DNA of 64,000 nucleotides from Nesterenkonia muleiensis (GTDB lineage: Bacteria > Actinomycetota > Actinomycetes > Actinomycetales > Micrococcaceae), in the NCBI RefSeq assembly GCF_003600155.1, contig NZ_QWLD01000029.1, positions 1 to 64,000 on the forward strand, written 5' to 3'. This document shows positions 6,979-23,265 of the stretch, piece by piece. Each line of letters opens with the position of its first letter. Position 1 is the first letter of the stretch. The notes below the pieces were generated by a model. That model searched no databases, was not told where the DNA came from, and worked only from the letters and a program-made list of their open reading frames with translations. The position numbers and the translations under genes are program-made.

Positions 6979-6992
6979 GGACTGCTTTAGAT

Positions 6993-9011
6993 ATGACACG
7001 GGGGAATGCGAGCAGCGGTCTGACGCAGGGAATCGTCGCTAAATCGGTACGCGCCCTGCGGAGGGTTGAGCGCAAAGGTGCCGCAGTATCGGCTAATGCC
7101 GTAGCCCGGATGCCGGGAGGAGAAGTTAAACTGGCCAAGTGGGCTTCTCAGGCCAGCGCGGACTTCATGCCCTGGGCAGAAGTCCAGATGACTGGTAGGG
7201 AACGCCCTCGAACCCGACGTCTACCGTTGATTATCATGCAGAGCTACCCGGGCTCTGAGGTGGAACTGGCGGATTTGGCTGACGAAGATAGTGCGGCCCA
7301 CCCCAATTTCTTAGAGAGGATCGCGGCCAGGCTTGCGTTAGAAGGTGACTATGTCACTGCACTCCGACTGCGGCGCCGTGCGGTGGAGCTCGATCCCGAA
7401 ACCGCTCACCGTCATTTGGCGTTGGCCCAGGGCCTTCTAGAGATTCCGGCGCAGGGGGTGGTCCATGATTGGATTCTAGGTCTGGCTCAGGGCCCTACAA
7501 CTCCTATAAGCGAAGAAGTGCTTCAGGCGCTCAGACGTAGCTTCGAACTTGCTCCGGGAAATCCCTATGTGTTGCACGAGTACGGTACTGCTCTGATTGC
7601 CACTGGTGAGGTGGGCCAAGCCTTGCCCTTGTTGGAGATAGCGATCCTGAAACGTCCTGACCAGGAGTGGTACCTCGAGCTGGCGGAGATTTACCGCCGT
7701 CCCGACATCGCCAAATTCGAACAGGCGATGATCTATTACGAGCGGGTTTTTGAAGACGATCCTAAGAATATGAAAGCGATCTCAGGAATCATTAATTCCG
7801 GAACTCGCGGCTCCATGGATTGGCCTAGAATATGGCGAAGTGTACGCAGGTTAGAAACCAATAAGAAGAGGGATACTCCCTATGACATCCCGGTAATTCA
7901 ATATCAATTGGACAAGCTTTTCTGGGGTGCTGATCATCCCAGCCAGGAGCATGTGGCTCTTCTGATCCAGGCGTTGGAGGCGGAGTCCCATCGTGACCGA
8001 CGGCTGCATCCTGCGGTTCTTGGGCTGGTGATTACTCGGCTGCAGTTCGCACGTCACTTCGCTGCCGGTTTTGCGTTGCGCACAGGCGTTGCCCAAGAGC
8101 GTCTTCGCACGCTTCGTAAGAAACCAATCGATTCTCCCACTGCACTGCGGAACCTTATGAAGGTCTACGTCTACCTGGATGAGGCCGAGACCGCAGCGAG
8201 CCTTGCGGACGTCAAGTTCTGGCCTTCTAAGGACAGAATCGAAAGTCTGCAGATCCAGAAGTTGCATGCTGATGCCCGACTGTGGGTCGGCGACGCTGCT
8301 CCATACATCAAGTACTCCAAGGAAGCCCGCACACGCACACCGCTGACCGCTGATTACCGGATGGAAAAGCTGATCAGAGGCAATCGGGTCGCTTTGGTAG
8401 GGCCAGCCGAGACCGGTGATCGACTCGGACACATCATCGACGAATACGACGTTGTCGTCCGTCCTCGCTACCAGCCAGAATTCATCGAAGAGAACAAGCA
8501 TGCTCAGGGCAGCCGTACGGACATCACCTACTACTCCGGACAGGACCTCACCTCGCTATTCGAGGGGATCTCCGCAGCGGTGGAAAGGGGCGAAGTCAAG
8601 GTGGTCAACGCGAGGCCTTTCAGCTATTCTGCCCACGCCCACCGTCAATTGCCATGGCTGCGGTTTTACCGCCAAGACTTCTCCCTGTGCTTCCATGGCG
8701 GTTCACTGGGTATCCAACGCATGGCTTACGATCTGTTGCAGTTCGAGCCCGAAGAAATCTGCGTGTTCAACTCGGACCTTTACACGGGAAGCTCGATGTT
8801 CACCGCAGGCTGGCGCCAGGGTGACGCCTTCGGGCCGTACTCGCACATCAACGACATTGTGGTCTCCCACGACGTGAAGTCGGAGTTTAAGTTCATGAAG
8901 GCGCTGATGGCTACCGGGATTGTGACGGCACAGGGCAGGGCCGCCGAGGTGTTGGCTCAGTCGCCCGATGAATACGTCCACGCCATTGAAGAAGCCGGGG
9001 TGTTGCGGTAG
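6993..9011 (+). CDS. TPR-repeat protein with GT29-like sialyltransferase domain, copy 1
   Basis: 672 residues, starting 14 nt after the NeuB fusion. Residues ~100-440 are helical TPR-like repeats (ALRLRRRAVELDPETAHRHLALAQGL; PGNPYVLHEYGTALIATGEVGQALPLLEIA). Residues ~460-670 are a putative glycosyltransferase domain. It shows an L-like motif from 466 (VALVGPAETGDRLG, IDEYDVVVRP, GSRTD at 506), an S-like motif from 567 (FHGGSLGIQRMAYDLLQF then VFNSDLYTG), and HDVKSE at 626-631, which is the H-x4-E of sialylmotif VS. These are the three signatures of family 29 sialyltransferases in the right order and spacing. No signal peptide or membrane segment seen, so probably cytoplasmic. Likely transfers the CMP-nonulosonate made by its neighbours. 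Assignment to GT29 is by motif only. Confidence 0.75.
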   Translation: MTRGNASSGLTQGIVAKSVRALRRVERKGAAVSANAVARMPGGEVKLAKWASQASADFMPWAEVQMTGRERPRTRRLPLIIMQSYPGSEVELADLADEDSAAHPNFLERIAARLALEGDYVTALRLRRRAVELDPETAHRHLALAQGLLEIPAQGVVHDWILGLAQGPTTPISEEVLQALRRSFELAPGNPYVLHEYGTALIATGEVGQALPLLEIAILKRPDQEWYLELAEIYRRPDIAKFEQAMIYYERVFEDDPKNMKAISGIINSGTRGSMDWPRIWRSVRRLETNKKRDTPYDIPVIQYQLDKLFWGADHPSQEHVALLIQALEAESHRDRRLHPAVLGLVITRLQFARHFAAGFALRTGVAQERLRTLRKKPIDSPTALRNLMKVYVYLDEAETAASLADVKFWPSKDRIESLQIQKLHADARLWVGDAAPYIKYSKEARTRTPLTADYRMEKLIRGNRVALVGPAETGDRLGHIIDEYDVVVRPRYQPEFIEENKHAQGSRTDITYYSGQDLTSLFEGISAAVERGEVKVVNARPFSYSAHAHRQLPWLRFYRQDFSLCFHGGSLGIQRMAYDLLQFEPEEICVFNSDLYTGSSMFTAGWRQGDAFGPYSHINDIVVSHDVKSEFKFMKALMATGIVTAQGRAAEVLAQSPDEYVHAIEEAGVLR

Positions 9012-9077
9012 TCACCGCAGATGGCGCCGAGAGGCACTGCAGTCTGGATCACCCGCATTGATGAAGGAGAAGAACCG

Positions 9078-10601
9078 ATGGCGTTCCGAGGCCACAAGGT
9101 CATCGCGATGGTGCCCAGCCGACTTGGGTCCACGAGGCTACAACGTAAGGCGTTGGCGGACATCTGCGGTCTGCCCATGGTGATCCACGTCCTGCAGCGA
9201 GTGCAGATGTCTCCGATCGTGGACGAGGTCTACGTTGCCACCGACTCTGAGGAGATCAAGTCTCTGGTGGAGTCTTACGAGGGGAAAGCAATCATGACCT
9301 CTTCAGGGCACACCACCGGTATTGAGCGAATAGCTGAAGCCTCGGAGGGCATGGACTATGACGTCATCTGTCTGATTAATGGGGACGAGCCAGCACTCAA
9401 CTCGGACCATATTCAGTCCTCAGTGGAGACCTTGTTGAATTCGGAGGCACCGACTGCGCTGCTGGCTTCGGAGTCCTCCACGGTGAACTCGCCCTCGGAC
9501 TTTAAGGTGGTTGCTAACCGCGAGGGGGAAGCCATGTACTTCTCCCGGGAGGATATCCCTTCGCCCTCGCGTTCCGGAGTCACCAAGTTCCTCAAGGCCT
9601 ACCACCTGATCTCCTTCCGAAAGGGTGCCCTCGCCGAGTACATGTCCTTGGACAAGACGCCGCTAGAAGCGATCGAGGGCCATGACCACTTGCGTTTCCT
9701 CGAGAACGGCCACACGGTGCAGATCGGCGTGGTGGAGCATGACTCTTTCTCTGTGGATACGGCTGAGAACCTTATCGACATGGTCCAGCAGATGCGTGAC
9801 GACAAGCTGTTTGACCAGTACAAGCACCTCGCTGCGTCGGGGGGAACGATTCAGGACAGTGCGCCGACAGCTGAGTTGGTAAGGTCCTCGTCCAAGATTA
9901 CTGCCGTGGTTCCCTGTCGGGCGGGCAGTGAACGGGTGAAGAACAAGAACACCAGATCATTCGCTGGCTTCCGGGGCGGACTTATCGAGCTCAAACTGAA
10001 GCAGCTGGAACTCGTGGATGAAGTTGACGATATCATCGTGTCTACGAACGACCCTCAGGTTGCGAAGATCGTCAATGAGTTTCGAGAGATCACGGCCAAA
10101 CCGGTCCGGATCGATGACCGGCCCGATCATCTGGCTGGCTCCTCGACGCCGATGTCCAAATTCATCCAGTATGCAGCGGAACTGGAGGAAGAGGGCACCA
10201 TGCTTATGACGCATGTGACCCACCCGCTGGTGACCGCGAAGGTCTTCGCCGAATTGATCGACGCCTGGCGGGAGGCTGAGGCGGCTGGACATGATTCCCT
10301 TGTGACCGCCACCCGCGTCCACACCTTCCTCTGGGATGCCAATGCCACGCCCTTCAACTACGATTCCACCGCGGAACGCTGGCCACGTAGCCAGGACATC
10401 GATCCGCTTTTCGAGATCAACCACGCCGCCTATTTGATGCCGTTCGCCCGGATGCGTGAGGTCGGTGACCGGGTCGGAATCAACCCGCGAATCTTCGAGA
10501 TGGACCAAGATGTGGCAATGGACATCGACTGGGAGCATCAGTTCCTCCTTCTGGAGGACATCGTTCTGGCGAAACAGCGTCGCGGAATCGAGTTGCTCTG
10601 A
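9078..10601 (+). CDS. Tandem cytidylyltransferase: KdsB-like plus NeuA-like
   Basis: 507 residues from ATG 9078, chosen because AAGGAGA lies 7 nt upstream; a longer frame from 9021 has no such site. Residues 1-~260 resemble CMP-Kdo synthetase: AMVPSRLGSTRLQRKALADI (nucleotide-binding loop), LINGDEPAL (metal site), then VKVVANREGEAMYFSR and FRKGALAEY. Residues ~275-507 resemble CMP-sialate synthetase: AVVPCRAGSERVKNKNTRSFAG, then STNDPQVAKIV and C-terminal AMDIDWEHQFLLLED. Both halves should make CMP-activated acidic sugars from CTP and a ulosonic acid. Two different activation domains in one chain is unusual and suggests either two sugars or one catalytic plus one regulatory half. It lies between two GT29-like genes. 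Confidence 0.85.
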   Translation: MAFRGHKVIAMVPSRLGSTRLQRKALADICGLPMVIHVLQRVQMSPIVDEVYVATDSEEIKSLVESYEGKAIMTSSGHTTGIERIAEASEGMDYDVICLINGDEPALNSDHIQSSVETLLNSEAPTALLASESSTVNSPSDFKVVANREGEAMYFSREDIPSPSRSGVTKFLKAYHLISFRKGALAEYMSLDKTPLEAIEGHDHLRFLENGHTVQIGVVEHDSFSVDTAENLIDMVQQMRDDKLFDQYKHLAASGGTIQDSAPTAELVRSSSKITAVVPCRAGSERVKNKNTRSFAGFRGGLIELKLKQLELVDEVDDIIVSTNDPQVAKIVNEFREITAKPVRIDDRPDHLAGSSTPMSKFIQYAAELEEEGTMLMTHVTHPLVTAKVFAELIDAWREAEAAGHDSLVTATRVHTFLWDANATPFNYDSTAERWPRSQDIDPLFEINHAAYLMPFARMREVGDRVGINPRIFEMDQDVAMDIDWEHQFLLLEDIVLAKQRRGIELL

Positions 10602-10724
10602 GGTACAGTGCGGGCCTGCTGGATTACAGTGAAGTTTCTCATATAGTAAGGATTTCCAATCGAAGGCGTGTATGTGCAGCTTTCTGAGGTATCAGTGCGA
10701 CAATAGCGAAGGGGCATACGCCAG

Positions 10725-12713
10725 GTGGTACAGGTGGTAGGTAAGTCAGTAAAGGATTTGGCAGCGATGACTTCGCCTGCTGCTATCAGGGCGACCTACA
10801 AGACCGCCAGGGGCAGGAAAATTCTGATGCGCCGTGCTGCGATTGGCAGCAGCGACTTCGTTTCAAGGTTCGAAACGCTGATCACGGGACGGAAGAGACG
10901 TGCTCAGACGAGGGCGAGCCGTCTGGCGCAGGCTATCCTGGAGCATGTGCCGGGTGGGGAAGTCGTGTTTGCCCTCGCGACGGCCGAGGAAGGACTCGCC
11001 TCTGCTGGACTAATGGAGCGTGTGGCTTCGAGGACCGTCAAGTCCGCATCTGTCAGTGACCTCATTTGTCTGCGCCGCTGGGCGGTGGAGCTCGAGCAGC
11101 AGGAAGCTCACCGGTATGTGGCGCTTGCGCTGTGTCTCGGCAAGGACGTCGAAGAAGGTGTTGTTCATGAGCCGCTCACTGGTTTGAGCCGTGGGAAGAC
11201 TACGCCCCATGGTGAAGAGATTGTCTCGCTCCTGCAGACGGCTAACACGTTATCTCCGGGCAGCGCCCTGATCTCCTATGAGCTGGGGAGACGTCTGGTG
11301 GAAAAAGGAGAGGTCAACGCGGGACTGCCACTTCTGGAGTTAGCCGCCTTGAAGGATCCGGAGGAATCGTGGCTTATGACACTGGCTCAGGTGTACCGGC
11401 GTCCCGATGTTGCGAAGTTCTCCGAGGCACTGGACACCTATGAGCAGATATACAGACTCAATCCCAAGAATTCGTCTGCACAGTCTGGCGTGGTGCATGC
11501 AGGTGTGCGAGGACCCATGGAATGGTCTCGTGTATGGCGCAATATCAAGGGGCTGGAGACCTCCCGAAAGAAATCTCCCTATCGTGTGCCGGAGGTCGCT
11601 GCGTATGTGGATCTTCTCTTCGACGAGGGTGACCTATTCGACAAGGGCGACGTCGTCTCTTTCTTGGAGCGACTTGGGGGTTTTGTCGACGAGGGACTCC
11701 ATCTGCATCCTCAGACCTTGGCACTTGTTGTGCTCCGACTTCAGTTCCTTGGACATCTCGCCGCAGGCTTTGCACTCAGACAGCGACTCGCGCGCAACAA
11801 GATCAATAGCCTTCGCCGGTCTGGTGTCAAGAACATCAGCGGCCTTCGCCAGCTGATGCAGGCGTATATCTATCTTGACGATGCAGAGACTGCGAGCAGG
11901 CTGTCAGAAGACAGCGAGTATTGGGCGCAGGGCGACCATGCGCGACGGGCTGCGGTGAGGAAGCTCCACGCAGATGCGGAGCTTATGCTCGGGAATCCCG
12001 ATCCGTATTTCAACTACTCGGTGGATGCTCGCAAGGGGTTCTACCTTCCCGGCGAGCGGAAGATGGTCAACCTTGTCAAGGGCCAACGGATTGCACTTGT
12101 GGGTCCGGCAGCTACCAACGAGGAGCTTGGGGAGATGATCGACGGCTATGACGTCGTGGTGCGGCCGAACTTCAACCCAGAGTTCGTCGCGGCTCACCCG
12201 AGGTCTATGGGCAGCCGCACAGATATCGCCTATTACTCGGGCCAGGACATGAACAAGCTCATCGACGACGTCGAGACGTTACTAGCAACTTCCGGAGTGC
12301 AGATCGTCAATACACGTTCCTTCAGCTTTCATGCTCATCATCAGCGTGAGATTTCGTGGCTCCGCTTCTGCCGCCATGATTGGTCGCTGTCGTTTCATGG
12401 GTCGCCGCTTGGTATCCAGCGGATGATCTATGACCTTCTGCAGTTCCGACCTAAAGAGATCGCCATCTTCAACTCAGACTTCTACACAGGTGCGGGAGAG
12501 TTCGCTGAGGGATATCGCGAGAAGCGCAGCTTTGGACCTGGTTCTTTCATGAACGACCTCGTTGTCGTACATGATCTCTTGACTGATTTCAAGTTCACAC
12601 AGGCTATGCTCAGGACGGGTCGAGTGACAGCGCATGGACGTAGCAAGAAAGTTCTAAGCCGTGATCCGTTGGATTACCTTCACGATGTTGAGAAAGCCGG
12701 AGTATTGAGTTGA
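10725..12713 (+). CDS. TPR-repeat protein with GT29-like sialyltransferase domain, copy 2
   Basis: 662 residues from a GTG; preceded by a 123-bp AT-richer gap that may carry a promoter. Same plan as the 6993 gene: TPR-like helices (PGSALISYELGRRLVEKGEVNAGLPLLELA) up to ~430, then L-like motif from 456 (IALVGPAATNEELG, YDVVVRP, GSRTDIAYYSGQD), S-like motif from 557 (FHGSPLGIQRMIYDLLQF, IFNSDFYTG), and HDLLTD at 616-621. Here the VS glutamate is replaced by aspartate, the only copy of the four with that change. Ends in a TTGA overlap with the GT8-like gene, so the two are translationally coupled. Confidence 0.75.
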   Translation: MVQVVGKSVKDLAAMTSPAAIRATYKTARGRKILMRRAAIGSSDFVSRFETLITGRKRRAQTRASRLAQAILEHVPGGEVVFALATAEEGLASAGLMERVASRTVKSASVSDLICLRRWAVELEQQEAHRYVALALCLGKDVEEGVVHEPLTGLSRGKTTPHGEEIVSLLQTANTLSPGSALISYELGRRLVEKGEVNAGLPLLELAALKDPEESWLMTLAQVYRRPDVAKFSEALDTYEQIYRLNPKNSSAQSGVVHAGVRGPMEWSRVWRNIKGLETSRKKSPYRVPEVAAYVDLLFDEGDLFDKGDVVSFLERLGGFVDEGLHLHPQTLALVVLRLQFLGHLAAGFALRQRLARNKINSLRRSGVKNISGLRQLMQAYIYLDDAETASRLSEDSEYWAQGDHARRAAVRKLHADAELMLGNPDPYFNYSVDARKGFYLPGERKMVNLVKGQRIALVGPAATNEELGEMIDGYDVVVRPNFNPEFVAAHPRSMGSRTDIAYYSGQDMNKLIDDVETLLATSGVQIVNTRSFSFHAHHQREISWLRFCRHDWSLSFHGSPLGIQRMIYDLLQFRPKEIAIFNSDFYTGAGEFAEGYREKRSFGPGSFMNDLVVVHDLLTDFKFTQAMLRTGRVTAHGRSKKVLSRDPLDYLHDVEKAGVLS

Positions 12714-13729
12714 ACGTTAACGATGACAAGAGAATAGCCGCCTACGTCGCAGGAGATAACAGGATATTCTTTCCTGCCTTAGTCGCCCTTAAAGAGCTTG
12801 AAAATCATAATCCTGAAAGATTTGATAAGTTTATAGTCTTTGACGGATCACTTGCCATTGGCTATGAGGCTGATCTTATGGAGAAGGCAGGCATCAAGTT
12901 CTTGGATGCGCGAGATGTCTCTTCCTATGATCTCATTGCAAAGTCCAGCGCGATGATTGATCGTGACTGGCCTTTAGAGGTCATGCTGAACTGGGCCGTA
13001 CCGGAGTACTTGGGCTCTATGGGTTACGGGCACTCCTTAAAGCTTGACTATGATGCTCTTCCTGTTCAGACTTTTTCGGAGCTCGACAGGCTCATCAACT
13101 CCAGAATGAAGGTCTCGTTTCGGACCGCGGCGGCTCGCTCAGTCGCCGTTGTGAATGATCGGGCCTCGTTAGGCACAGGCTGGGACCGAATCGACCCGGA
13201 GCGGCCAGTGAGGCAACTTAACGCGGGGGTGGCTCTGTTTGACAACCGAGCCATTGCAGAGGTTTCTGAAGAGGGATTCTTTGCGGAGGTTATGGCGATC
13301 TATGACGAGATCATGACCCAAGCGCCGGCGACGAAGACCATCGAGCAGGTCGCACTCGCCTATGTGTGCGATAGGTTCGGCTCGGATTTCGTTGATCTTC
13401 CCCATGCTATGAATTCCTTTGCTCGGGAGTGGAATGCACGGTTAGAAGTCTCAGCTATGGAAGTGATTCACTTCCTCGGCAAGCCAAAGCCGTGGCAGCC
13501 GCTTGAGCCGCGTTTGCTTTATCGCTACGTAACTCGCATGAAGCTGATGCCTTATCTTCGTGACATCTGGTTGTCGGCGGCCAGTCGCGTCGAGGGCTTC
13601 GAGGACTTCACGAACCAAAGGGCGAGCACTCCTTTGGAGCGCCTTCAGCTCGCTATTTGGATGGAGACGGAACGGAGCCAGCACCGGAAGAAAGTGCAGG
13701 AGCGGATCAGCAAGCATCTAGAGTTCTGA
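12710..13729 (+). CDS. GT8-like glycosyltransferase
   Basis: 339 residues from a TTG overlapping the previous stop (TTGA), with GGAG upstream. Matches the family 8 pattern: N-terminal AAYVAGDNRIFFPALVALKELENHNP, a D-Y-D (LKLDYDALPV) where family 8 has its metal-binding D-x-D, NAGVALFDN near 168, and HFLGKPKPW near 255, corresponding to the H-(F/Y)-x-G-x-x-K-PW block. Such enzymes transfer hexose from a UDP-sugar with retention. The sequence is visibly less GC-rich than the flanking genes, as are the next 280 bp, which suggests acquisition by transfer. Confidence 0.8.
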   Translation: MNVNDDKRIAAYVAGDNRIFFPALVALKELENHNPERFDKFIVFDGSLAIGYEADLMEKAGIKFLDARDVSSYDLIAKSSAMIDRDWPLEVMLNWAVPEYLGSMGYGHSLKLDYDALPVQTFSELDRLINSRMKVSFRTAAARSVAVVNDRASLGTGWDRIDPERPVRQLNAGVALFDNRAIAEVSEEGFFAEVMAIYDEIMTQAPATKTIEQVALAYVCDRFGSDFVDLPHAMNSFAREWNARLEVSAMEVIHFLGKPKPWQPLEPRLLYRYVTRMKLMPYLRDIWLSAASRVEGFEDFTNQRASTPLERLQLAIWMETERSQHRKKVQERISKHLEF

Positions 13730-14010
13730 TCTAATGATTTAATTTAGGTCGTTTGACAGTGGTTCATGCGGATTATGTATTCATTGCGGAGCTGAATTAA
13801 CGATAAGGCTGTGAACCGCTCTTCGCATGAGGCGTAGACCAAGCAGTGTGACGTCTCTTGGAAGAATAAATTCGCACAGTGAAGACCGTGTCAGATGATT
13901 CCTTAGGGCTGTGCTTCGTGAGGGTCCGCGGGGTTATCTTTGGCCAACATGGTGGTGGCGGGCTCGACAGTGGTTAGTAGAACGTAAGCTTCTGAGTGTG
14001 AGGATTTTTT
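13730..14010. other. AT-rich intergenic region with candidate promoter
   Basis: 281 bp without a gene, clearly lower in GC than the surroundings. Contains a possible sigma-70 type promoter described separately. No RNA gene or strong hairpin recognised. Confidence 0.5.
13753..13781 (+). promoter_or_regulatory. Candidate -35/-10 promoter
   Basis: TTGACA at 13753-13758 followed after 17 nt by TGTATT at 13776-13781 (or the nearby TATGTA). It would drive the downstream glycosyltransferase genes. Confidence 0.35.
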
Positions 14011-15168
14011 GTGACTATGAGACGCCCTGAGTCCGCTTGGTGTGACGACGGGGGCGAGTGGCCCCGCGTGTCGATCGTGATTCCCGTGTACAACGCAGAG
14101 CAATACATCGGTGCATGTCTCGCCAGCATCACGCAGCAAACCCTTGGAGATCTTGAAGTGATCTGCGTTGATGATGGATCTGAGGACGGTTCGGCGGGAG
14201 TTGTCGCGAATGCAGCCGCCGAGGACGCCCGGATCAAGCTGATCCTGCAGAATAACGGCGGGGCATCGAGTGCACGTAACGTAGGTTTCGACCTGGCAGT
14301 TGGTGAGTTTGTGACCTTTGTCGACGCTGATGATGAGATCAGCTCGGACTTTGTTGAGGTCTTGAGCCGGGTTATTGAGCGTGATGGGTCAGACGTGGCG
14401 CTGGGCAACACTTACATCATCCGTGGTGATGGGACCGCAGGCGCTAAGTACCCTGGCCAAAAGGAGACGGCGCTCGTCAGAGGTGCGGATTACGAGAAGT
14501 ATAAGCTCCTGAGTCGCAACGCACCTCATGGCAAGCTGTTTCGTCGCTCTTTCCTGTTGGAGCAAGGTATTCGCTTCTTCGAGGGTATCACCTACGAGGA
14601 TTATCACCACTGGCTTCAGACCGTGGCGCAGGATCCAAAGATTTCCCTGGTTTCGGACTTCGTGTACACCTACAAGCGGAACCCTCATTCGGTCAGCGCA
14701 GGTGCCCATATCCTGCGCCCCCACAACATCAACAGTCGTCTGGTGCAGACCGGCGAGTCGCTTCGCGTCGCTCGGGAGAGCAATGTTCCTGGGCTGATGG
14801 CGAAGACCTTCCGCATGCAGTTTGGGGCGAGAATCATGCGTCATATTTCCGCTCTTGCTAGGACGCGGGACCGCCGGAAGGCGGAGGTCGCTTTCGGCAT
14901 TCTGCGCGAAGGGCTCATCGAGCACCAGGAAGAGATCAGGCGGAGTCTGCGAGGCTACGTTCGCCTCGTCTATGAGATCATCTTCGAAGGTTCGCTTGAA
15001 GACCTCCGCAAGCTGCTCCGTTGGGGTGATGGGAAGGCTTCGCTGGCTCTCTTCGTTGATACAGAACCTGAACCCCCCAAGGTGTACGTCGACCCTGTGG
15101 AATTTCCTAGCATGGGGCATCGGCCTAGAGAGTTCTTTGACGTATCAGATAAGGTTCGGAAGAGGTAG
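14011..15168 (+). CDS. GT2-family glycosyltransferase
   Basis: 385 residues. The GT-A fold is clear: RVSIVIPVYNAEQYIGACLASI at ~20-41, VICVDDGSEDGS, NGGASSARNVGFDLAVGEFVTFVDADDE carrying the D-x-D (FVDADD) near 107. HGKLFRRSFLLEQGIRFFEG and TYEDYHHW follow. Expected to add a sugar or polyol unit from a nucleotide donor at the cytoplasmic face; the C-terminal 150 residues are helical. GTG at 14011 is placed well relative to the GAGG upstream; an ATG at 14017 is possible. Confidence 0.88.
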   Translation: MTMRRPESAWCDDGGEWPRVSIVIPVYNAEQYIGACLASITQQTLGDLEVICVDDGSEDGSAGVVANAAAEDARIKLILQNNGGASSARNVGFDLAVGEFVTFVDADDEISSDFVEVLSRVIERDGSDVALGNTYIIRGDGTAGAKYPGQKETALVRGADYEKYKLLSRNAPHGKLFRRSFLLEQGIRFFEGITYEDYHHWLQTVAQDPKISLVSDFVYTYKRNPHSVSAGAHILRPHNINSRLVQTGESLRVARESNVPGLMAKTFRMQFGARIMRHISALARTRDRRKAEVAFGILREGLIEHQEEIRRSLRGYVRLVYEIIFEGSLEDLRKLLRWGDGKASLALFVDTEPEPPKVYVDPVEFPSMGHRPREFFDVSDKVRKR

Positions 15169-15175
15169 GCGGGAA

Positions 15176-16255
15176 ATGTCCAAACGTTATGCGATCATTT
15201 GTGCTGCGCATGAGGGCAACAGCGGTATGTGCAGCGTGGACCGCGCAGCTGAGGATTTTCTCTCGGCTCGCGGTGCCGACTATACCCTGTTCTCCGCTCA
15301 GCAGGCCGAAGGCCGTATGTACAATCATGTACCCTTCCAGCGGTGGGAAGATCTGGATTCCTACTCCCACGTGGTCTATTGGGGGGACTTTCTTAATAAC
15401 CCGTTCTATGGTTATAAGTCCTTCCCGAACCGGAGCCGCCGTTGGGGGATTGAGACAAGCAAACGTGAAGCCATCGCTACTTGGAAGGAACTCTTCACGC
15501 CGCGATACGTCGAGCAGAAGCTCTACGCCATCGGGCAGAATTTTCAGCACGACTTCACTGAGAAGGTGACAGATTTCGGGCCGGTGTTCAGACGCCTAGA
15601 GAAGACTCTGGAGGCCCTCGTTGTGCGCGACCCGTTCTCCTTCCAGAACCTATCGCGGATGGTCGAGTTTAGTGCGCTCAACCAAGTCCAGCAGGGTCTT
15701 GACTGCGCATTCCTTCAAGAACCTCGGCACCGGAAGACGAATGGAGGAGACGGGACATTCGCATACTTTTTCCGCCGGTCCAAGCTTGCCAATGGGGAAA
15801 CGCTTGTCAGAAGGGTAGAGGAAGCGACTGGTCTAAGAGGAGTTGAGCTCAAGAACTGGATCCCCCTGCCGCGCAGCAAATGGGAGGGAACCTTCAAAGC
15901 GCTGAAGATCCGGATCGACAGTGCCTCGCTCGTTGTGACCGACACCTACCATGTGGGGGTCAATGCAATGCAGTCCAGAACCCCTGTTGTGGGGATCGGC
16001 CGACAGAGTACCCGGCAGGTGGGGACCATCGGCGACTTCAAGAAGAGAGTTCTCTTCGACATGTTCGACCTCTCACGCTTTTACCACGAGATCCCCGCCG
16101 ACCAGGAAGACACCCAGGCCTATGGTCAGGTCGTGAGAATGACAGAGCGTGCGCTCAGCGAGCATGGGGATCCTTCTGCGGCCCCCTACGCCCTCGTAGA
16201 GGCCAGGACCAGGCAATTTACGGGTCAGGTCGAGCGGCTTCTCGAACTTAGGTAA
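15176..16255 (+). CDS. Polysaccharide pyruvyltransferase-like protein
   Basis: 359 residues from ATG 15176, 7 nt after the GT2 gene; a longer in-frame extension back to 14822 is only the shadow of that gene. Pattern of the polysaccharide pyruvyltransferase/CsaB superfamily: LVVRDPFSFQNLSRM mid-protein (R-D-x-x-S), and near the C-terminus LVVTDTYHVGVNAMQSRTPVVGIG, where family members carry S/T-D-x-x-H..NA...P. The family adds pyruvate ketals or acts as a GT-B transferase. Here the likely job is modification of the surface polymer. Similarity is limited to these blocks. Confidence 0.6.
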   Translation: MSKRYAIICAAHEGNSGMCSVDRAAEDFLSARGADYTLFSAQQAEGRMYNHVPFQRWEDLDSYSHVVYWGDFLNNPFYGYKSFPNRSRRWGIETSKREAIATWKELFTPRYVEQKLYAIGQNFQHDFTEKVTDFGPVFRRLEKTLEALVVRDPFSFQNLSRMVEFSALNQVQQGLDCAFLQEPRHRKTNGGDGTFAYFFRRSKLANGETLVRRVEEATGLRGVELKNWIPLPRSKWEGTFKALKIRIDSASLVVTDTYHVGVNAMQSRTPVVGIGRQSTRQVGTIGDFKKRVLFDMFDLSRFYHEIPADQEDTQAYGQVVRMTERALSEHGDPSAAPYALVEARTRQFTGQVERLLELR

Positions 16256-16271
16256 CTCTTCGCCTTCTAGG

Positions 16272-16297
16272 GCGTGCCTCACATATGGGAGACACGC
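16272..16297 (+). terminator. Hairpin after the glycosyltransferase run
   Basis: GCGTG-c-CTC, an 8-nt loop, GAG-a-CACGC: a stem of 8 pairs with one mismatch, 17 nt after the stop of the pyruvyltransferase-like gene. No T-run follows, so it could be a weak terminator or an RNA-stability element. Confidence 0.4.
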
Positions 16298-16316
16298 ATC
16301 TAGCGGAAAAGGCTCA

Positions 16317-18224
16317 ATGTGGCCCAGAAGTGCCGCTCTGCTCTGTGGCGATGGTCATAGGAGCTTGCTGCTCAAGCCCTACGCTGTGAACTCTAGGCCA
16401 GCCGAGTCCAGTCCTAACGGGGAGCGCGTGAGGGGTGTATCGCGGCGTCGTGCTCTGTCTCCACTACTATCTGCCTCCGCCGCGGCCCCGCTGCTCGGCG
16501 TCATCACCGCATCTCCGGCCTCGACCTACTCTAACCCGTCCGAAGTGCCTAATCCCTTCCAGGCCTACAGTGCCCGGGACTACGCAGACGCCATCTGGAA
16601 CCTGGAGACCAGCACCTATGTGCGCAGCCACGAGCGCGAAAACAACGAGGACTGCGATGTGCTCACCTATGAGGTCATGCATCCTTTAGGGGCGGAGCCC
16701 GACCGCTCCTATGTCCACATCGCCGATGAGGACAACTGGTGGTGCTCAGGCTCCGAAGGTGACGCGCTACGCGAGGAGTTTGACGAACTCGAGGACTCTG
16801 ATGAGAACTTCTACCATGGGCGCCCCTACGAGAATGTGACCCAGCGGGTGCCTTACTTCGGCACCTGGGCTGATGTGAACGGAAACGGAGTCAACTCCCG
16901 CACCGAGATTCACGCCCGTGACCTCGGGAGCAGCACCTTCAGCATCTCCGGCACCTACTGGGACCACTACTCAGGGCAGTACGTGAACATCGGCGAGACT
17001 GAGACCCACGGGGAACACATGATCCCGGTAGGCCATACCTGGCCGGAGATGCAGCACCGCAGCCGTGATGACCGGGTGGCCTACTACAACGACCACATGA
17101 ACCTCACCAGCACCATCGGCGAGACCAACCGCGAGAAGAGCGGGCAGACGCCGTCTGAGTGGATGCCGGACAACGAGGATGCCCATTGCGCCTATGGAAT
17201 GACCTGGACACATATCGCCAATAAGCACCGGATCTCTCTGTTCCAGCGCGACGTTGATCACCTGCGCGAGCTGCTGTGGGACTGCTTGGAGGAGGAGCTC
17301 GACGGTGCCGACGCCCTTCCGGAACAGCGCAGCTCAGACCTTGACTGGCAGACACTTCCCCCGGAGTCCTCGCCGCAGGAGGCGGAGGAAGAGCCTGGGG
17401 GCGGCCCACGGGAGCATTACACATCACGTGATTACACCGACGCCCTCTGGAATCTTGAGAACCTCGCGAGGATCCGCAGCGTGGAGCGTGAGGAGCGTGA
17501 GGAATGTGACCTCCAGACCCACACAGTTCGTCACCCGCGCACTGGGGCAGAGACTGTCTATGCCCGTATCATCTCTCCGGAGAACTCATACTGCGCAGGG
17601 GAGCAGGGCGACGACCTGCGCGCTGAGCTCGACGAACAAGCCGAAGATGATGACAGCTTCTTCCACGGGAGTCCGCTCGCCGGTCAACGCCGGGACTACT
17701 TCGGCTTTTGGGCGGCCGATGAGGGGGTCAACACGCGGCACCGCGTGCTCGCTCGGGACCTGACCGAGGTGGAATGGAACTCTGCTGAGACTGGCGTGCG
17801 TGATGGGGACTTCTACGACCCCTACACCGGTGACCACGCCGAATACAGCGCGCCCGACACAGTGCTGGACCATCTGCTGCCGGTTGAGCATGCCTGGATC
17901 GAGATGCAGCACCGGAGCGAGGACGAGCGGAAGCAGTTCTACAATGACCCCACCAACCTGCTGGCGGTGACGGCAGAGAGCCAGCAAGACAAGGGCTCCC
18001 AGGCACCCCGGAACTGGATGCCGGAGCACCAGGGGTTCCACTGCCGCTATGCGATGGCCTGGACCTCCACCGCGGTCAAGCACGGGATCTCACTCTTCGA
18101 CTCAGACATCCGCGAGCTGCGTGAAACCCTCTACCGGTGTGCTGCAGAGGAGACCGCAGAGAGCGGGACAGTGGAGAGTGTACGCAGGGCAGAGCTCGAC
18201 TGGGCCAGCCTCCCGCCCTACTAG
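16317..18224 (+). CDS. Secreted protein with two tandem HNH (DUF1524/GmrSD-C-like) nuclease domains
   Basis: 635 residues. An SRRRAL twin-arginine-like motif (42-47) followed by a small-residue hydrophobic run and ASPAS suggests export; a GTG at 16428 would give a conventional signal peptide. The mature part is a duplication: units of about 84-360 and 365-635 both start (S/T)ARDYADAIWNLE-like, have DC in the first strand, and end with HNH signatures. Unit 1: GEHMIPVGHTW (H234), YYNDHMNLTST, SGQTPSEWMP, HCAYGMTW. Unit 2: LDHLLPVEHAW (H519), FYNDPTNLLAV, KGSQAPRNWMP, HCRYAMAW. This is the pattern of secreted actinobacterial HNH endonucleases. It probably cuts DNA outside the cell; whether both units are active is unknown. 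It interrupts the glycosyltransferase run without obvious link to polymer synthesis. Confidence 0.8.
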   Translation: MWPRSAALLCGDGHRSLLLKPYAVNSRPAESSPNGERVRGVSRRRALSPLLSASAAAPLLGVITASPASTYSNPSEVPNPFQAYSARDYADAIWNLETSTYVRSHERENNEDCDVLTYEVMHPLGAEPDRSYVHIADEDNWWCSGSEGDALREEFDELEDSDENFYHGRPYENVTQRVPYFGTWADVNGNGVNSRTEIHARDLGSSTFSISGTYWDHYSGQYVNIGETETHGEHMIPVGHTWPEMQHRSRDDRVAYYNDHMNLTSTIGETNREKSGQTPSEWMPDNEDAHCAYGMTWTHIANKHRISLFQRDVDHLRELLWDCLEEELDGADALPEQRSSDLDWQTLPPESSPQEAEEEPGGGPREHYTSRDYTDALWNLENLARIRSVEREEREECDLQTHTVRHPRTGAETVYARIISPENSYCAGEQGDDLRAELDEQAEDDDSFFHGSPLAGQRRDYFGFWAADEGVNTRHRVLARDLTEVEWNSAETGVRDGDFYDPYTGDHAEYSAPDTVLDHLLPVEHAWIEMQHRSEDERKQFYNDPTNLLAVTAESQQDKGSQAPRNWMPEHQGFHCRYAMAWTSTAVKHGISLFDSDIRELRETLYRCAAEETAESGTVESVRRAELDWASLPPY

Positions 18225-18235
18225 GACGTAATGGT

Positions 18236-18241
18236 TAGACT
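18236..18241 (+). promoter_or_regulatory. Candidate near-leaderless -10 box inside the cluster
   Basis: TAGACT, 9 nt before the ATG of the third GT29-like gene, after the nuclease gene ends. Confidence 0.35.
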
Positions 18242-18250
18242 TGCTCATCG

Positions 18251-20233
18251 ATGCTTAAACCATTGGTGATGGGAGCTGAGGCTGCCCGGAATGCTGTGCG
18301 TGGTCTTAGAAGAATCCCCGGAGCGGATATAGCGATCGCGCGAGGAGTGGTCAACTCAGGGCGGCTGGTGACTCCGCGCATTGAGGCGAGCGTAAGCCAT
18401 AAGGGAACCCCGATCGGCGGTTTCCAGGAACGTGCTGCCACGGTACTGTTCGAAGCCAACCGCGCCGGTGCCATGAAGCTGCTCGATCAGCTGGACATCC
18501 AGGGTATCGACGACGCCGCCGCCCTGGAGCGTCTGGCGCTGCGCTATATGAAGCTGCGCGAGTATGAGGCAGCCCTCACCCTGCGCAGACATGCTGTGGC
18601 CCTGGAGCCTGAGAACCCCCTGCGGTGGGTGGCGCTGGCCCGTTCGCTGCAGCGGGCTTCCTGGGGTGCGGTCTCCCATGATCCGGTGGCCGGGCTCGGT
18701 CACGGCCCCGTCTCCGAGACTGAGGCCGCGCGCGAAGCACTCGCCACAGCGCAGGAACTGGCCCCAAGCAACGCCTATGTGATCCATGAGCGGGGGAAGC
18801 TGGAGTTCGCCCGTGGTGACTGCCAGACCGGGCTGGATCTGATGAGCCAAGCTGTGCAACTGGAGCCGAAGGCGCAGTGGTGTACCGATCTGGCTGCCGC
18901 CTACCGGAAACCCCATGTGGCCGACCTTGACAAATCACTCGACGCCTACGAAAAGGCTCTGGAGCTGCGGCCTTCGAGTCCCACGGCATTCCGCGGGCTG
19001 CTTCTGATGGGCTGCCGGGCAGACCAAGACTGGGCACGGCTCTGGCGCAACGCCGAACTCTTCGAATCCGCTCGCAAACGGCGCGGACGGAGAGCACGTA
19101 TGCGGCTGATGTCCCTCCTGCGACCCATGTTCGCCGCTGATACGACTGACGCTCAGGTCAGCGCCAGTCTCGTTCAGCTGAACATCACGCTGGTCAAGGG
19201 CCAGCGGCTGTCCTGGCCCACCACCAGCCTGATCATTTACCGCCTGCACTTCGCCCAACGGATGAAAGCGGGATTCGCCCTGCGGCGGCAGTTGGCCGAA
19301 CGCACCATCGCCTGGCTCGGAACATCCAGTGCTGGTCACAGCAGGCACCGGCAGAAGCTGCTCTCAGCGCTCATCTATCTGGAGCGCTATCAGCAGGCGC
19401 AGCAGCTCATCGACCCCATGCCCTGGGAACCCAGCAGCGCAGCCGAGCGGCATCGCCTGGAGAAGATGGCCGCAGACGTCCATCTCCTCCGGGGCCGTAC
19501 GACTCCGTTGGTCGACTATGCTCGCGCTCGCGCTGAGGAACTCCCTCTGCCAGGTGAGGAGAAGTTCCGGTCCCTGGTGGGCGGCAAACGCGTGGCACTG
19601 GTGGGACCTGCCGACACCGGTGACCGGCTTGGGGCAGCGATCGATGACTACGATGTGATCATCCGTCCTCGGCTGATGACCGAATTCACCGATGACCACA
19701 TCGCCCGGCTCGGCAGCCGAACTGATATCAGTTACTTTTCCGGGAGGGACCTGACGGAGTTCATCCCAGTGGCAACCACGGCAGTCGAGCGCGGGGAACT
19801 GCAAATGGTCGTAGGCCGGGGGCTGAGCATGAGCAGCTTCAGCCATGAGAGCCCCGCCTGGCTGCGGTTCTACCGGCACGACTACTCGCTCGGCTTCCAC
19901 GGCCCGCCCATGGGAATCGGACGTATCCTCTACGACGTGCTGCAGTTCGAGCCGGCTGAGATCGGCCTGTTCAACATCGACTTCTTCACCGGCCAGACGG
20001 CTTTCGGCGCCGGCTACCGCGAGGCTAAGGATTCCGGCCTGGGCCCCTACTCCATCGTCAACGAGATCATCCTCGCCCATGATCTGGTGTTCGAACACCG
20101 GCTCACCAAAGCCATCGCGGCCACTGGTGTGCTGCAGGGTCACGGTGTGGCAGGCGAGGTGCTGGCTCTGAACGAGGCGCAGTACCTGCAGAAGCTCGAA
20201 GAGTCCCCAGCACTGCGGGCCCAGGAGCGGTGA
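18251..20233 (+). CDS. TPR-repeat protein with GT29-like sialyltransferase domain, copy 3
   Basis: 660 residues. TPR-like repeats (YMKLREYEAALTLRRHAVALEPENPLRWVALARSL; PSNAYVIHERGKLEFARGD) lead into the transferase domain: L-like motif from 448 (VALVGPADTGDRLG, IDDYDVIIRP, GSRTDISYFSGRDL), S-like motif from 549 (FHGPPMGIGRILYDVLQF, LFNIDFFTG), VS-like HDLVFE at 610-615 with the glutamate kept. Higher GC than copies 1 and 2, so the two pairs of paralogues may have separate histories. 18 nt before copy 4. Confidence 0.75.
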   Translation: MLKPLVMGAEAARNAVRGLRRIPGADIAIARGVVNSGRLVTPRIEASVSHKGTPIGGFQERAATVLFEANRAGAMKLLDQLDIQGIDDAAALERLALRYMKLREYEAALTLRRHAVALEPENPLRWVALARSLQRASWGAVSHDPVAGLGHGPVSETEAAREALATAQELAPSNAYVIHERGKLEFARGDCQTGLDLMSQAVQLEPKAQWCTDLAAAYRKPHVADLDKSLDAYEKALELRPSSPTAFRGLLLMGCRADQDWARLWRNAELFESARKRRGRRARMRLMSLLRPMFAADTTDAQVSASLVQLNITLVKGQRLSWPTTSLIIYRLHFAQRMKAGFALRRQLAERTIAWLGTSSAGHSRHRQKLLSALIYLERYQQAQQLIDPMPWEPSSAAERHRLEKMAADVHLLRGRTTPLVDYARARAEELPLPGEEKFRSLVGGKRVALVGPADTGDRLGAAIDDYDVIIRPRLMTEFTDDHIARLGSRTDISYFSGRDLTEFIPVATTAVERGELQMVVGRGLSMSSFSHESPAWLRFYRHDYSLGFHGPPMGIGRILYDVLQFEPAEIGLFNIDFFTGQTAFGAGYREAKDSGLGPYSIVNEIILAHDLVFEHRLTKAIAATGVLQGHGVAGEVLALNEAQYLQKLEESPALRAQER

Positions 20234-20251
20234 TCAAGCGATGGTGATCCG

Positions 20252-21913
20252 ATGGCAGTGAGTCTGCATGGACTGCGGTGGAAAATCGCAGCGGCTGCGG
20301 TGTTTACCCGCACGGCTCGGCGGGTGGGGAGGGCCCCCATTGCGGCCAGATTGATCAGTGCCACAGCAAACCGATTAGAGCCTGCGGACCAGGAGGTGAC
20401 CGGAAGTTACCGGGGCATCGCTGCCGGTCTGCTGCGGCGAACCTTGCCTGCGGAGGAGACCGAAGAGGGCATCGTCTATGACTCGGTGGCGGGATTGGTC
20501 CGCGGAACACCTGAGCCTCCATCTGATGCCGCCGAACTCTCAGCTAGGGCAGAGCGCTCGCCCTCTGCGGGGAATCTTCTGGCCGCCGCCTCCGCGCACC
20601 GCAGGCCCTATGTCTCGGATTTGGCCGCAGCCGCTGAGTACTACGAACGAGCAGTCCGGGCCAACCCCAAGGATCTGCGCGCCGTCGAGGGCGTGCTGAC
20701 CATCGGGTCACGAACGCACTTCGACTGGCCTCGCATCTGGAATGTGGTGCAGCTGCTCATTCCCCGACGCGGGCGGCTGCGTAGGGGAACGGAGCTTTGG
20801 CAGGCCATCGGCGGGATCTTTGAGCAAACGCCAAGGGACGACGCCGTAGACCGGGCTCTCAGTCAGCTCCAGGAGCACCAACACCGACTCCCGCTGCTGC
20901 ATCAGCTGCTCCTGGAGGCCATCGCCGCACGGTTGCATTTCCTGGGCCAGTTCTCCGCGGGAACCCGCCTGCGCGAAGCCATGGCACACAACCGGGTGCG
21001 GGAGCTGGTCGGGATTCCTCTGGAATCGGGAATCTGGCTTAAGCACCTGCTCGGCGCCTATGCGTACCTGGAGGAGGACCACCGGTTGGAAGCAACAGCG
21101 CTTGAACCCCCGGTGGACCTCACCGATGCCAGAACCCGGATCCAGGCTGAGAAGCTGGCCGCGGACGCGGCGCTGATGGCCGGGGACGCTGAACCGCTCC
21201 GTACCCATGCCATCGAGCGCCGTGCCCAGGTCCAACTCCCAGGGGATGATCTGATGAGCGGCCTGGTGACGGGCAGGCGAGTTGCGGTGGTCGGGCCTGC
21301 CGGCGGTGATGGACTGGGGGAGCTGATCGAGTCCTATGACGTCGTCGTGCGCACCCGGCACACTCCGGCAGGAGAGAAGGAGCATGCCGGCAGCCGGACC
21401 GACATCGCCTACTACGCCGGGCGTGATCTGCTGAGGGACTACCAGGAGGTCTCCGAGACGGCAGAATCCGGAACGATCCAGCTAGCGGTGACCCGGCCTT
21501 TCTTCGTGGAAGCGCCGCTGCTCGAGCAGTGGCCCGAATGGCTGCGAGCCGCACGGTTCGAACACGGACTGTACTTCCGCGGTGCCGCCCAGGGCGTCCA
21601 ACGGATCATCTACGACCTGCTGCAGTTTCATCCGGCGGAGATCGCGGTGTTCAATGCCGACTTCTACGCCGGACAGTCCCTGGCGGCTGAGGGGTACCGG
21701 GCCAGCTACTCTGCCTTCGGCCCGAACAACCAGACCAATGATGTGGTGGCCATGCACGATGTGGCCTACGAGTTCCGTTGGACCAGGCAGCTGAGCCGGT
21801 CAGGGCTGATCACTGCCCACGGCACTGCCGCCGAGGTATTGGGCCTCAGTGTTGAGCAGTATCTCCGCCGTCTGGAGGCCGGCCCGCTCGGGCAGGGTGC
21901 CGTTCAGCGATAG
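20252..21913 (+). CDS. TPR-repeat protein with GT29-like sialyltransferase domain, copy 4 (shorter)
   Basis: 553 residues; about 110 fewer in the N-terminal repeat part than the other three. Transferase domain: L-like motif from 344 (VAVVGPAGGDGLG, YDVVVRT, GSRTDIAYYAGRDL), S-like motif from 442 (FRGAAQGVQRIIYDLLQF, VFNADFYAG), HDVAYE at 502-507. The S-motif histidine present in the other copies (FHG) is arginine here, which might change activity. Codon use is ordinary for the genome. Immediately followed by a histidine phosphatase gene. Confidence 0.72.
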   Translation: MAVSLHGLRWKIAAAAVFTRTARRVGRAPIAARLISATANRLEPADQEVTGSYRGIAAGLLRRTLPAEETEEGIVYDSVAGLVRGTPEPPSDAAELSARAERSPSAGNLLAAASAHRRPYVSDLAAAAEYYERAVRANPKDLRAVEGVLTIGSRTHFDWPRIWNVVQLLIPRRGRLRRGTELWQAIGGIFEQTPRDDAVDRALSQLQEHQHRLPLLHQLLLEAIAARLHFLGQFSAGTRLREAMAHNRVRELVGIPLESGIWLKHLLGAYAYLEEDHRLEATALEPPVDLTDARTRIQAEKLAADAALMAGDAEPLRTHAIERRAQVQLPGDDLMSGLVTGRRVAVVGPAGGDGLGELIESYDVVVRTRHTPAGEKEHAGSRTDIAYYAGRDLLRDYQEVSETAESGTIQLAVTRPFFVEAPLLEQWPEWLRAARFEHGLYFRGAAQGVQRIIYDLLQFHPAEIAVFNADFYAGQSLAAEGYRASYSAFGPNNQTNDVVAMHDVAYEFRWTRQLSRSGLITAHGTAAEVLGLSVEQYLRRLEAGPLGQGAVQR

Positions 21914-21953
21914 GCTGGTCTGCGCTCGCAGTCGCCACATCAGAGGAGAAGCA

Positions 21954-22707: not shown

Positions 22708-23265
22708 TCAGTCTCGGTCCGGCGGGGGAGGGAGCGCGGTCTCAGGGTCGGTGCCGAGGGCGCGCAGCCGGGCGGTCGACGGCGGGGGAGGGGCTGCGTC
22801 ATCGTGCTGGGAACCCCTCTGTCCGAACTGAGCCTGCTGCTGGTCCTGGCGCCTGTACTCGATGGCCTCGAACAGCAGGTCGCGCCTGATGTCTGAGGTG
22901 GAGGTGCCTTCAGTGCGGTCCAGGTAAACCACCTCGCAGGCCGGGCGCAGATACTCGAACCGGGGGGAGTTCTTCCAGTCCGAGCCCATGACCACCACGT
23001 CGATACCATGCTCAGTCACATCGTCGCTCTTCTGCTCCCAGGTGGCCTCCGGAATCACCAGGTCCACATACCGGAGAGACTCGAGCATCATCTTGCGCAC
23101 CTCATAGGGGTGGTAGCTGGGCTGCTTGCCCGGCTTGGCCTCGTTGAACTCATCGGTGGAGAGCCCGACGACCAGATAGTCACCTAGCGCCTTGGCACGT
23201 TTCAGCAGCCGGATATGCCCCCAGTGGAGCAGATCGAATGTGCCATAGGTCAGAATCCGCTTCAT
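22708..23265 (-). CDS. Glycerol-3-phosphate cytidylyltransferase, TagD-like (copy A)
   Basis: 185 residues. GTFDLLHWGH (8-17) holds the H-x-G-H type nucleotide-binding motif and RTEGTST (117-123) is the second family signature; STDEFNEAKPGK matches TagD closely. Makes CDP-glycerol from CTP and glycerol-3-phosphate for teichoic acid synthesis. The C-terminal ~50 residues are an extra polar tail rich in Q, R and P, longer than the ~130-residue core family. Confidence 0.9.
   Translation of the reverse strand: MKRILTYGTFDLLHWGHIRLLKRAKALGDYLVVGLSTDEFNEAKPGKQPSYHPYEVRKMMLESLRYVDLVIPEATWEQKSDDVTEHGIDVVVMGSDWKNSPRFEYLRPACEVVYLDRTEGTSTSDIRRDLLFEAIEYRRQDQQQAQFGQRGSQHDDAAPPPPSTARLRALGTDPETALPPPPDRD

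Follow-up and report, generated by a model that had tools for sequence, protein, structure and literature searches.

A divergent clade of GT29-like domains, some fused to TPR parts, at a nonulosonate locus of Nesterenkonia muleiensis

The window described here, namely positions 1 to 64,000 (64,000 nucleotides) of contig NZ_QWLD01000029.1 of the actinobacterium Nesterenkonia muleiensis (assembly GCF_003600155.1), contains four sister genes, called A to D hereafter (Table 1), which lie among genes of the NeuB synthase, cytidylyltransferase and glycosyltransferase families and whose products end in a common domain resembling the sialyltransferases of glycosyltransferase family 29 (GT29). This domain has about 220 residues; measured against the first copy, the others show 44-52% identity, and for the whole proteins the figure is 35-44%. 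In a column-by-column reading, all four domains carry their motifs in one order, VGPA, R(P/T)(R/N), GSRTD, F(H/R)G with G(I/V)(Q/G)R, FNxD(F/L)(Y/F)(T/A)G and HD-x3-(E/D), where the last acid is Glu in A, B and C and Asp in D. The four open reading frames, the C-terminal domain of about 200 residues and the succession of L-like, S-like and HD-x3-(E/D) motifs, as described in the first-pass annotation made from the letters of the sequence, are therefore all present. The N-terminal parts are less uniform, since the Pfam families of the tetratricopeptide repeat (TPR) are over their cut-off in A and C, are under it in D, and are not reported at all by the Pfam scan in B; the description of four TPR-fused proteins thus holds for two of them at the Pfam cut-off. 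Among the matches listed, the N-terminal part of B resembles that of the other copies in N. sedimenti (L010) and N. cremea (L011) at 28-33% identity. A search with one copy and two profile searches found just these four places in the N. muleiensis genome. By hydropathy none of the four proteins has a transmembrane segment (highest 19-residue mean 1.2-1.7), and their last 220 residues hold 0-2 Cys. No match was found in a plasmid collection queried with protein A, nor in a phage collection queried with its domain.

As the basis for comparison, an alignment and profile of 45 homologous domains (A3) was built from 26 loci and the window, with the domain of A as its first row. Forty of its members are actinobacterial, from Nesterenkonia, Garicola and Demequina, and five come from Gram-negative loci (Alkalimonas, Pseudomonas and three metagenome-assembled genomes); excluded are 7 of 52 domain matches with fewer than 150 profile positions, namely four pieces of L030, a partial match of L006 and the second short matches of L012 and L013. 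A second set (A5) consists of five chosen bacterial domains, every one from a protein over the cut-off of the Pfam GT29 family PF00777, and excludes L048, which is under it. When the A3 profile was compared with the sequences of the PDB, the best 7 of 12 rows were ST3Gal1, ST8Sia3 and ST6Gal1, with E from 2e-5 (ST3Gal1, the top row) to 6.8e-4; non-sialyltransferases begin at 0.014, ST6GalNAc2 stands at 0.092, and the matches to GT29 sequences are confined to the L-motif part. The alignment of A3 with A5 by hhalign reaches 97.1% (E 4.9e-11) and extends over 170 columns, placing HD-x3-E on H-x4-E. Moreover, when 18 loci were searched with the A3 profile, it found L006/L036 (L006 44.7 bits to PF00777) and L037 (27.4 bits), both over the PF00777 cut-off, and matched none of the nine PF01973 (MptE-like/DUF115) loci (L053-L061) at E<=10. 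Scanned singly, 25 of the 45 domains match PF00777 at E<=1, the best at E 9.9e-6. These comparisons of sequence support a relationship of the four C-terminal domains to GT29.

The predicted structure points in the same direction. For the domain of A, AlphaFold2 on the A3 alignment gave a model with pLDDT 88.8 and pTM 0.88. Foldseek returned 20 matches at E<=0.001, which are 19 GT29 entries and one CstII, and its first 46 rows are all sialyltransferases (GT29, GT42 or family unstated), with E from 7.3e-6. In the VIA comparison the Z values are 13.4 for CstI, 13.1 for ST3Gal1 (root-mean-square deviation 2.7 over 164 residues), 12.7 for CstII, 12.3 for ST8Sia3, 12.1 for ST6GalNAc2 and 11.7 for ST6Gal1, followed by an archaeal HPPK at 9.8 as the first non-sialyltransferase, SteA at 8.4 and Maf at 7.8. 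The model accordingly matches both ST6Gal1 and ST3Gal1, the two structures that the first-pass annotation had proposed for comparison, and it supports a predicted sialyltransferase fold of the GT-A variant kind, where the fold does not separate GT29 from GT42 and sequence decides. The lack of any structural match to GT29, which that annotation had named as a reason to give up its reading, was thus not seen. Residue 197 of the model corresponds to residue 342 of porcine ST3Gal1, and if the last aligned stretch is gapless, H174 falls on His319. His319 and Glu324 of ST3Gal1 are contacts of a docked inhibitor, with His as the base in GT29 (PMC8433944), and the catalytic His of GT29 sits in motif VS (PMC10225777). 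H174 and D175 are identical in all 45 homologous domains, and since sialyltransferases also lead the profile and structure matches, the resemblance is more than chance.

The genes around the four copies are given in Table 1. The block 5407-16255, which holds the NeuB fusion, copy C, the double cytidylyltransferase, copy D and the GT8-like, GT2 and pyruvyl-transferase genes, has 56.1% G+C, against 63.9% in 16317-22703 and 65.7% in 22704-64000. In the double cytidylyltransferase, the first half alone scores 208.7 bits to the Kdo model NF003952 (cut-off 193) and is below four other Kdo models listed; for the second half PseF is best, at 41 bits, far under its cut-off. The two kinds of cytidylyltransferase domain in one protein suggest, as far as sequence can tell, two activated ulosonic acids. 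Downstream, the window has a gene of the LCP family, whose members attach wall glycopolymers in other bacteria.

Table 1. The four sister genes and their neighbours in the window
Feature	Position	Strand	Remarks
TPR-GT29-like protein A, 660 aa	18251..20233	+	Putative catalytic domain ~19559-20230; domain used for the model
GT29-like protein B, 553 aa	20252..21913	+	Putative catalytic domain ~21248-21910; shorter N-terminal part, no Pfam TPR match
TPR-GT29-like protein C, 672 aa	6993..9011	+	TPR part ~6993-8354, putative catalytic domain ~8355-9008
TPR-GT29-like protein D, 662 aa	10725..12713	+	Putative catalytic domain ~12057-12710; R-x-N kept, HD-x3-D
NeuB-family nonulosonate synthase fusion	5407..6978	+	PF03102 E 2.2e-40, placed 6199-6945; below NeuB and PseI equivalog cut-offs
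Double cytidylyltransferase	9021..10601	+	PF02348 in two stretches; first half Kdo-cytidylyltransferase-like, second half nonulosonate-type
GT8-like glycosyltransferase	12710..13729	+	Below Pfam cut-off; homologues in L012 and L024 (among matches listed)
GT2 glycosyltransferase	14011..15168	+	PF00535 E 1.5e-35
Polysaccharide pyruvyl transferase family	15173..16255	+	PF04230; start inferred from L018 homologue
Glycerol-3-phosphate-cytidylyltransferase-like	22708..23265	-	TIGR01518 164.0 bits (cut-off 165.4), PF01467
LytR-CpsA-Psr (LCP) protein	23959..25035	+	PF03816 E 5.3e-42

Two neighbours deserve a separate description. The N-terminal domain of the NeuB fusion (about 5407-6138, with the motif ILGKGPSAD) has no Pfam match, and its model is poor (pLDDT 54), with no structural match at E<=0.001. 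It was considered as a fifth transferase, as its LGKGPSAD start looks GT42/DUF115-like by eye, an idea that found no support, with an hhalign value of 2% to A3. The domain recurs at 57-84% identity in L010, L011, L015 and L019, among the matches listed. Of the 19 genomes of the genus with NeuB, 18 have it within an open frame of 523-613 aa, and because of these long frames the fusion may be common in Nesterenkonia. The protein of 16317-18224 has two stretches of GmrSD_C/DUF1524 type (HNH nuclease), and the N-termini of its relatives look exported; relatives with 58-71% identity lie near the tandem pair of copies in at least nine Nesterenkonia or Garicola loci.

Homologous loci were compared by the best 45 matches for each window protein at E<1e-10, and neighbours were checked in L033 by a listing of open reading frames and in L034 by similarity search with the window proteins. 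A and B lie in tandem, and many Nesterenkonia and Garicola loci combine this pair with a 16317-type gene, a NeuA-like gene and a phosphatase gene of the 21849 type. Among the matches listed, N. sedimenti (L010), N. cremea (L011) and Demequina (L015, L019) have the NeuB fusion alongside a domain copy. In Pseudomonas (L035), PseC, PseF, PseG and PseI, all over their equivalog cut-offs, precede the homologue, and a glycerol-3-phosphate-cytidylyltransferase-like gene (TIGR01518 140.7 bits) stands directly before it; PseG and PseI over equivalog cut-offs also precede the homologue in N. sedimenti L012, and the homologue of L032 has near it a NeuC that passes its cut-off and genes of the NeuB family that stay under theirs. 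Three further loci show other arrangements. In Demequina oxidasica (L019), the protein of 10997-12478 is over the PF00777 cut-off (29.3 bits) and shares a nonulosonate locus with a divergent TPR-GT29 protein; the locus also holds a NeuB-family gene, a fusion of GT8 and pyruvyl transferase, DUF6716, and a cytidylyltransferase fused to a domain of KdsC/Kdn-9-phosphatase type, below cut-off. In L006/L036, from a genome of the same order (G138), one protein combines a GT29 domain over the Pfam cut-off with a glycosyl transferases group 1 domain. In Nesterenkonia pannonica (L030, 6747-10175), sequencing error or decay has left the tandem pair broken into several frames.

At the genome level, the domain is present in 20 of 30 genomes of the genus: 15 have two copies, three have four, one has five, and one has five pieces of broken copies. 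NeuB is present in 19 of the 30, all inside the 20 with the domain, and ten genomes have neither; the chance of such nesting is 3.7e-7 in a calculation that ignores shared ancestry. A scan of the class (296 genomes) gave two matches, in N. muleiensis and, partially, in G138; the class to which the Pseudomonas genome belongs (229 genomes) gave three, including that Pseudomonas genome and G743, which has 22.8 bits to PF00777 (cut-off 23). In a comparative study, the SpsE sialic acid synthase and CDP-glycerol glycerophosphotransferase differ between groups of the genus (PMC8875376). In a tree of 47 rows, whose Gram-negative part is unsure for its long branches, A belongs to a group of 12 (support 100/100) and B to a group of 14 (99/93), C goes with L010 and L011 (100/98) and more distantly with L012, and D goes with L011 (100/100). 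Since the four copies lie in separate supported groups, none of them arose by a recent duplication of another. Lineages A and B are met with throughout the genus, and C and D are found in two or three species. The first-pass annotation took the four for a putative polymerase set, perhaps with a different linkage made by each; such separate lineages fit with specialisation, and they show neither linkage nor polymerisation.

Taking the sequence, the model and the gene context together, we consider it probable that the domains are CMP-ulosonate transferases of GT29 kind, forming a divergent bacterial clade, with a nonulosonate wall or surface glycopolymer as the likeliest product. It is from the gene context that the putative CMP-nonulosonate transfer by the four proteins draws its support; they probably help to build the bacterial surface. 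In the mechanism we propose, NeuB would make a nonulosonic acid and the double cytidylyltransferase would load it with CMP; the TPR-GT29 proteins would then carry out a cytosolic transfer, inverting and metal-independent, with the invariant H174 as the base, and their N-terminal part, which may position the acceptor, could have the acceptor chain, a partner enzyme or a protein other than flagellin as its target; finally the nonulosonate-bearing polymer would be exported and attached by the LCP protein. By analogy with the teichulosonic acid of Streptomyces, a nonulosonate-bearing wall glycopolymer seems the likeliest, and two points favour it: in Streptomyces coelicolor a teichulosonic acid with Kdn makes up the major wall glycopolymer (PMC7831098), and an LCP gene is close. 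A more elaborate scenario can be drawn, to which we give a rather modest chance, in which a new GT29 subfamily of Actinomycetota with a Pro/Arg donor site would supply four TPR-guided transferases working in sequence, with two CMP-ulosonates (a nonulosonate and a Kdo-like one, from the double cytidylyltransferase), on a mixed wall polymer.

Several points weigh against the assignment as CMP-ulosonate transferases of GT29 kind. None of the four window proteins reaches the PF00777 cut-off (23 bits): B has 15.9 bits (E 0.0087), D has 12.4 bits (E 0.11), and A and C have no report at E<=1, so that the profile search suggested in the first-pass annotation gave two matches under the cut-off and nothing for the other two domains. 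A scan of 396 phylum genomes with PF00777 gave matches in 2, the N. muleiensis genome having none, and two loci over its cut-off (L046, L047) have no A3 profile match at E<=10. A relationship to GT29 is backed by the PDB-sequence profile, the profile-profile alignment and the predicted structure; membership, as advanced in that annotation, is not borne out at the Pfam cut-off. As for the donor site, the Asn of 'GN' (position 17) is found in 0/45 domains, with Pro in 44, and the Asn of 'R-x-N' is replaced in three of the four window proteins, mostly by Arg; at this position 38, Asn is kept in 9/45 domains, that is, in 5/5 Gram-negative and 4/40 actinobacterial ones including D. Both residues, which we take to contact the donor, are invariant in A5 (N22, N45). 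The S-motif segment points both ways: it is collinear and has G/A at position 119 in 45/45 domains, and it shows no P-S/T-S-G, the pattern of A5. Hence the three sialylmotifs, as claimed at first, are collinear and GT29-like and are not canonical; a sialylmotif III is likewise named for GT29 (PMC5811610). The acid of H-x4-E is E/D in 40/40 actinobacterial domains and in 0/5 Gram-negative ones, which leaves the His alone as universal and touches in part upon the first annotator's own reservation, that the domains might better match a family where H-x4-E is not conserved. On the structural side, the Foldseek TM-scores (query) of the sialyltransferase rows are just 0.29-0.56, and CstI of GT42 is as good a structural match as the GT29 enzymes. 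On the functional side, genome G659 has the domain and no NeuB match, L031 has no nonulosonate gene among its checked neighbours, the polymer exporter was not identified, with no systematic search made for one, and no donor, acceptor or polymer was observed.

It is quite unlikely, in our estimation, that the domains are of GT42 type as CstI and CstII, or form a separate family of the same superfamily, instead of belonging to GT29. The top VIA rank of CstI, tied with ST3Gal1, and the two replaced asparagines would agree with this, but the five families that match the 45 members at E<=1 do not include PF06002 (GT42), the A3 profile has GT29 entries and no GT42 entry in the PDB up to E 10, and A3 aligns with bacterial PF00777 domains over the 170 columns given above. 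It is thus the sequence, and not the fold, that speaks against GT42 as the better family. Scanning 229 genomes with PF06002 gave one fragment, under the cut-off, which provides no profile-profile control against GT42. That the proteins are catalytically dead or regulatory sialyltransferase folds could be read from the loss of both L-motif asparagines in three window copies; with the His and the acid five residues on kept in all 40 actinobacterial domains, and lineages A and B recurring through the genus, such an outcome appears very improbable.

Other explanations concern the acceptor and the donor. The proteins could be protein glycosyltransferases, which would grip a protein acceptor by the TPR part and decorate a surface protein with nonulosonic acid by the GT29-like part, as the architecture and donor class of FlmG (PMC7591256) and Maf-1 (PMC13317340) would indicate. 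However, the catalytic part of FlmG is of the GT-B superfamily, another fold (PMC7591256), and flagellin (PF00669) is found in 6 of 30 genomes of the genus and 5 of the 20 with the domain, N. muleiensis not being among them, so that we think a protein acceptor unlikely, though a non-flagellar one may still serve. Flagellin as the general acceptor was rejected, as 15 of the 20 domain-bearing genomes have none. Similarly there is a small chance that the four proteins, or some of them, use CMP-Kdo or a Kdo-like sugar as donor: the first half of the double cytidylyltransferase passes one Kdo model and is under four others, and GT29 includes a suggested plant Kdo transferase, RCKT1 (PMC11288761), whereas the synthase linked to them belongs to the NeuB family and the homologues in L035 and L012 stand in pseudaminic-acid gene sets.

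Returning to the GT29-kind CMP-ulosonate transferases, GT29 was reported in 2018 from Proteobacteria and archaea by Petit et al. (PMC5811610), in the available portion of which the word Actinobacteria does not occur. Our literature search found no report of GT29 in Actinobacteria or of a TPR-fused GT29, where subscription literature was thinly covered and the absence is weak evidence, and no biochemical study of a bacterial GT29 relative. Bacterial GT29 itself is therefore already known, and it is the TPR-fused actinobacterial clade, missed by Pfam, that looks new. Since the Pfam GT29 model misses the clade, we infer that automatic annotation probably calls such proteins TPR or hypothetical. 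The family behind the sialic-acid coat of animals has bacterial relatives, and this clade, repeat-fused and lying in nonulosonate loci with two to five copies per genome, offers a place to learn the role of bacterial GT29 and the beginnings of the eukaryotic family. Moreover, the window genes are candidates for the enzyme of ulosonate linkage in wall polymers of teichulosonic type.

Compared with the animal GT29 enzymes ST3Gal1, ST8Sia3, ST6Gal1 and ST6GalNAc2, the clade is alike in predicted fold, in the order of L-, S- and VS-like motifs, in the invariant His and, for the actinobacterial part, in H-x4-E/D, and it differs in being below the Pfam cut-off, in Pro for the 'GN' Asn and mostly Arg for the 'R-x-N' Asn, and in an S-motif segment that shows no P(S/T)SG pattern; the window proteins also differ by having no transmembrane segment by hydropathy, few Cys (0-2), and a TPR part in front. 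In the former two respects they are like the bacterial GT29 of Petit et al., which have no transmembrane domain and no disulphide cysteines (PMC5811610). The GT42 enzymes CstI and CstII are of the same fold class as the window domains, with no sequence match to PF06002. A combination of TPR and nonulosonate transferase in one protein is seen in FlmG of Caulobacter, where the N-terminal TPR binds flagellin and the C-terminal part is a pseudaminic-acid transferase (PMC7591256), and in Maf-1, which has its TPR at the C-terminal end (PMC13317340); FlmG differs from the window proteins by its catalytic fold and Maf-1 by the order of its parts, and both use flagellin, which is absent from the N. muleiensis genome. 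Of the same phylum are the proteins of L019 (10997-12478), L037 and L006/L036, which likewise have a long part before the GT29 domain and, unlike the window copies, keep the canonical GN (or AN), RFN and P(T/S)(S/T)G. In Demequina the canonical protein and a divergent one share the same nonulosonate locus, and these two form a natural pair for a comparison of donors.

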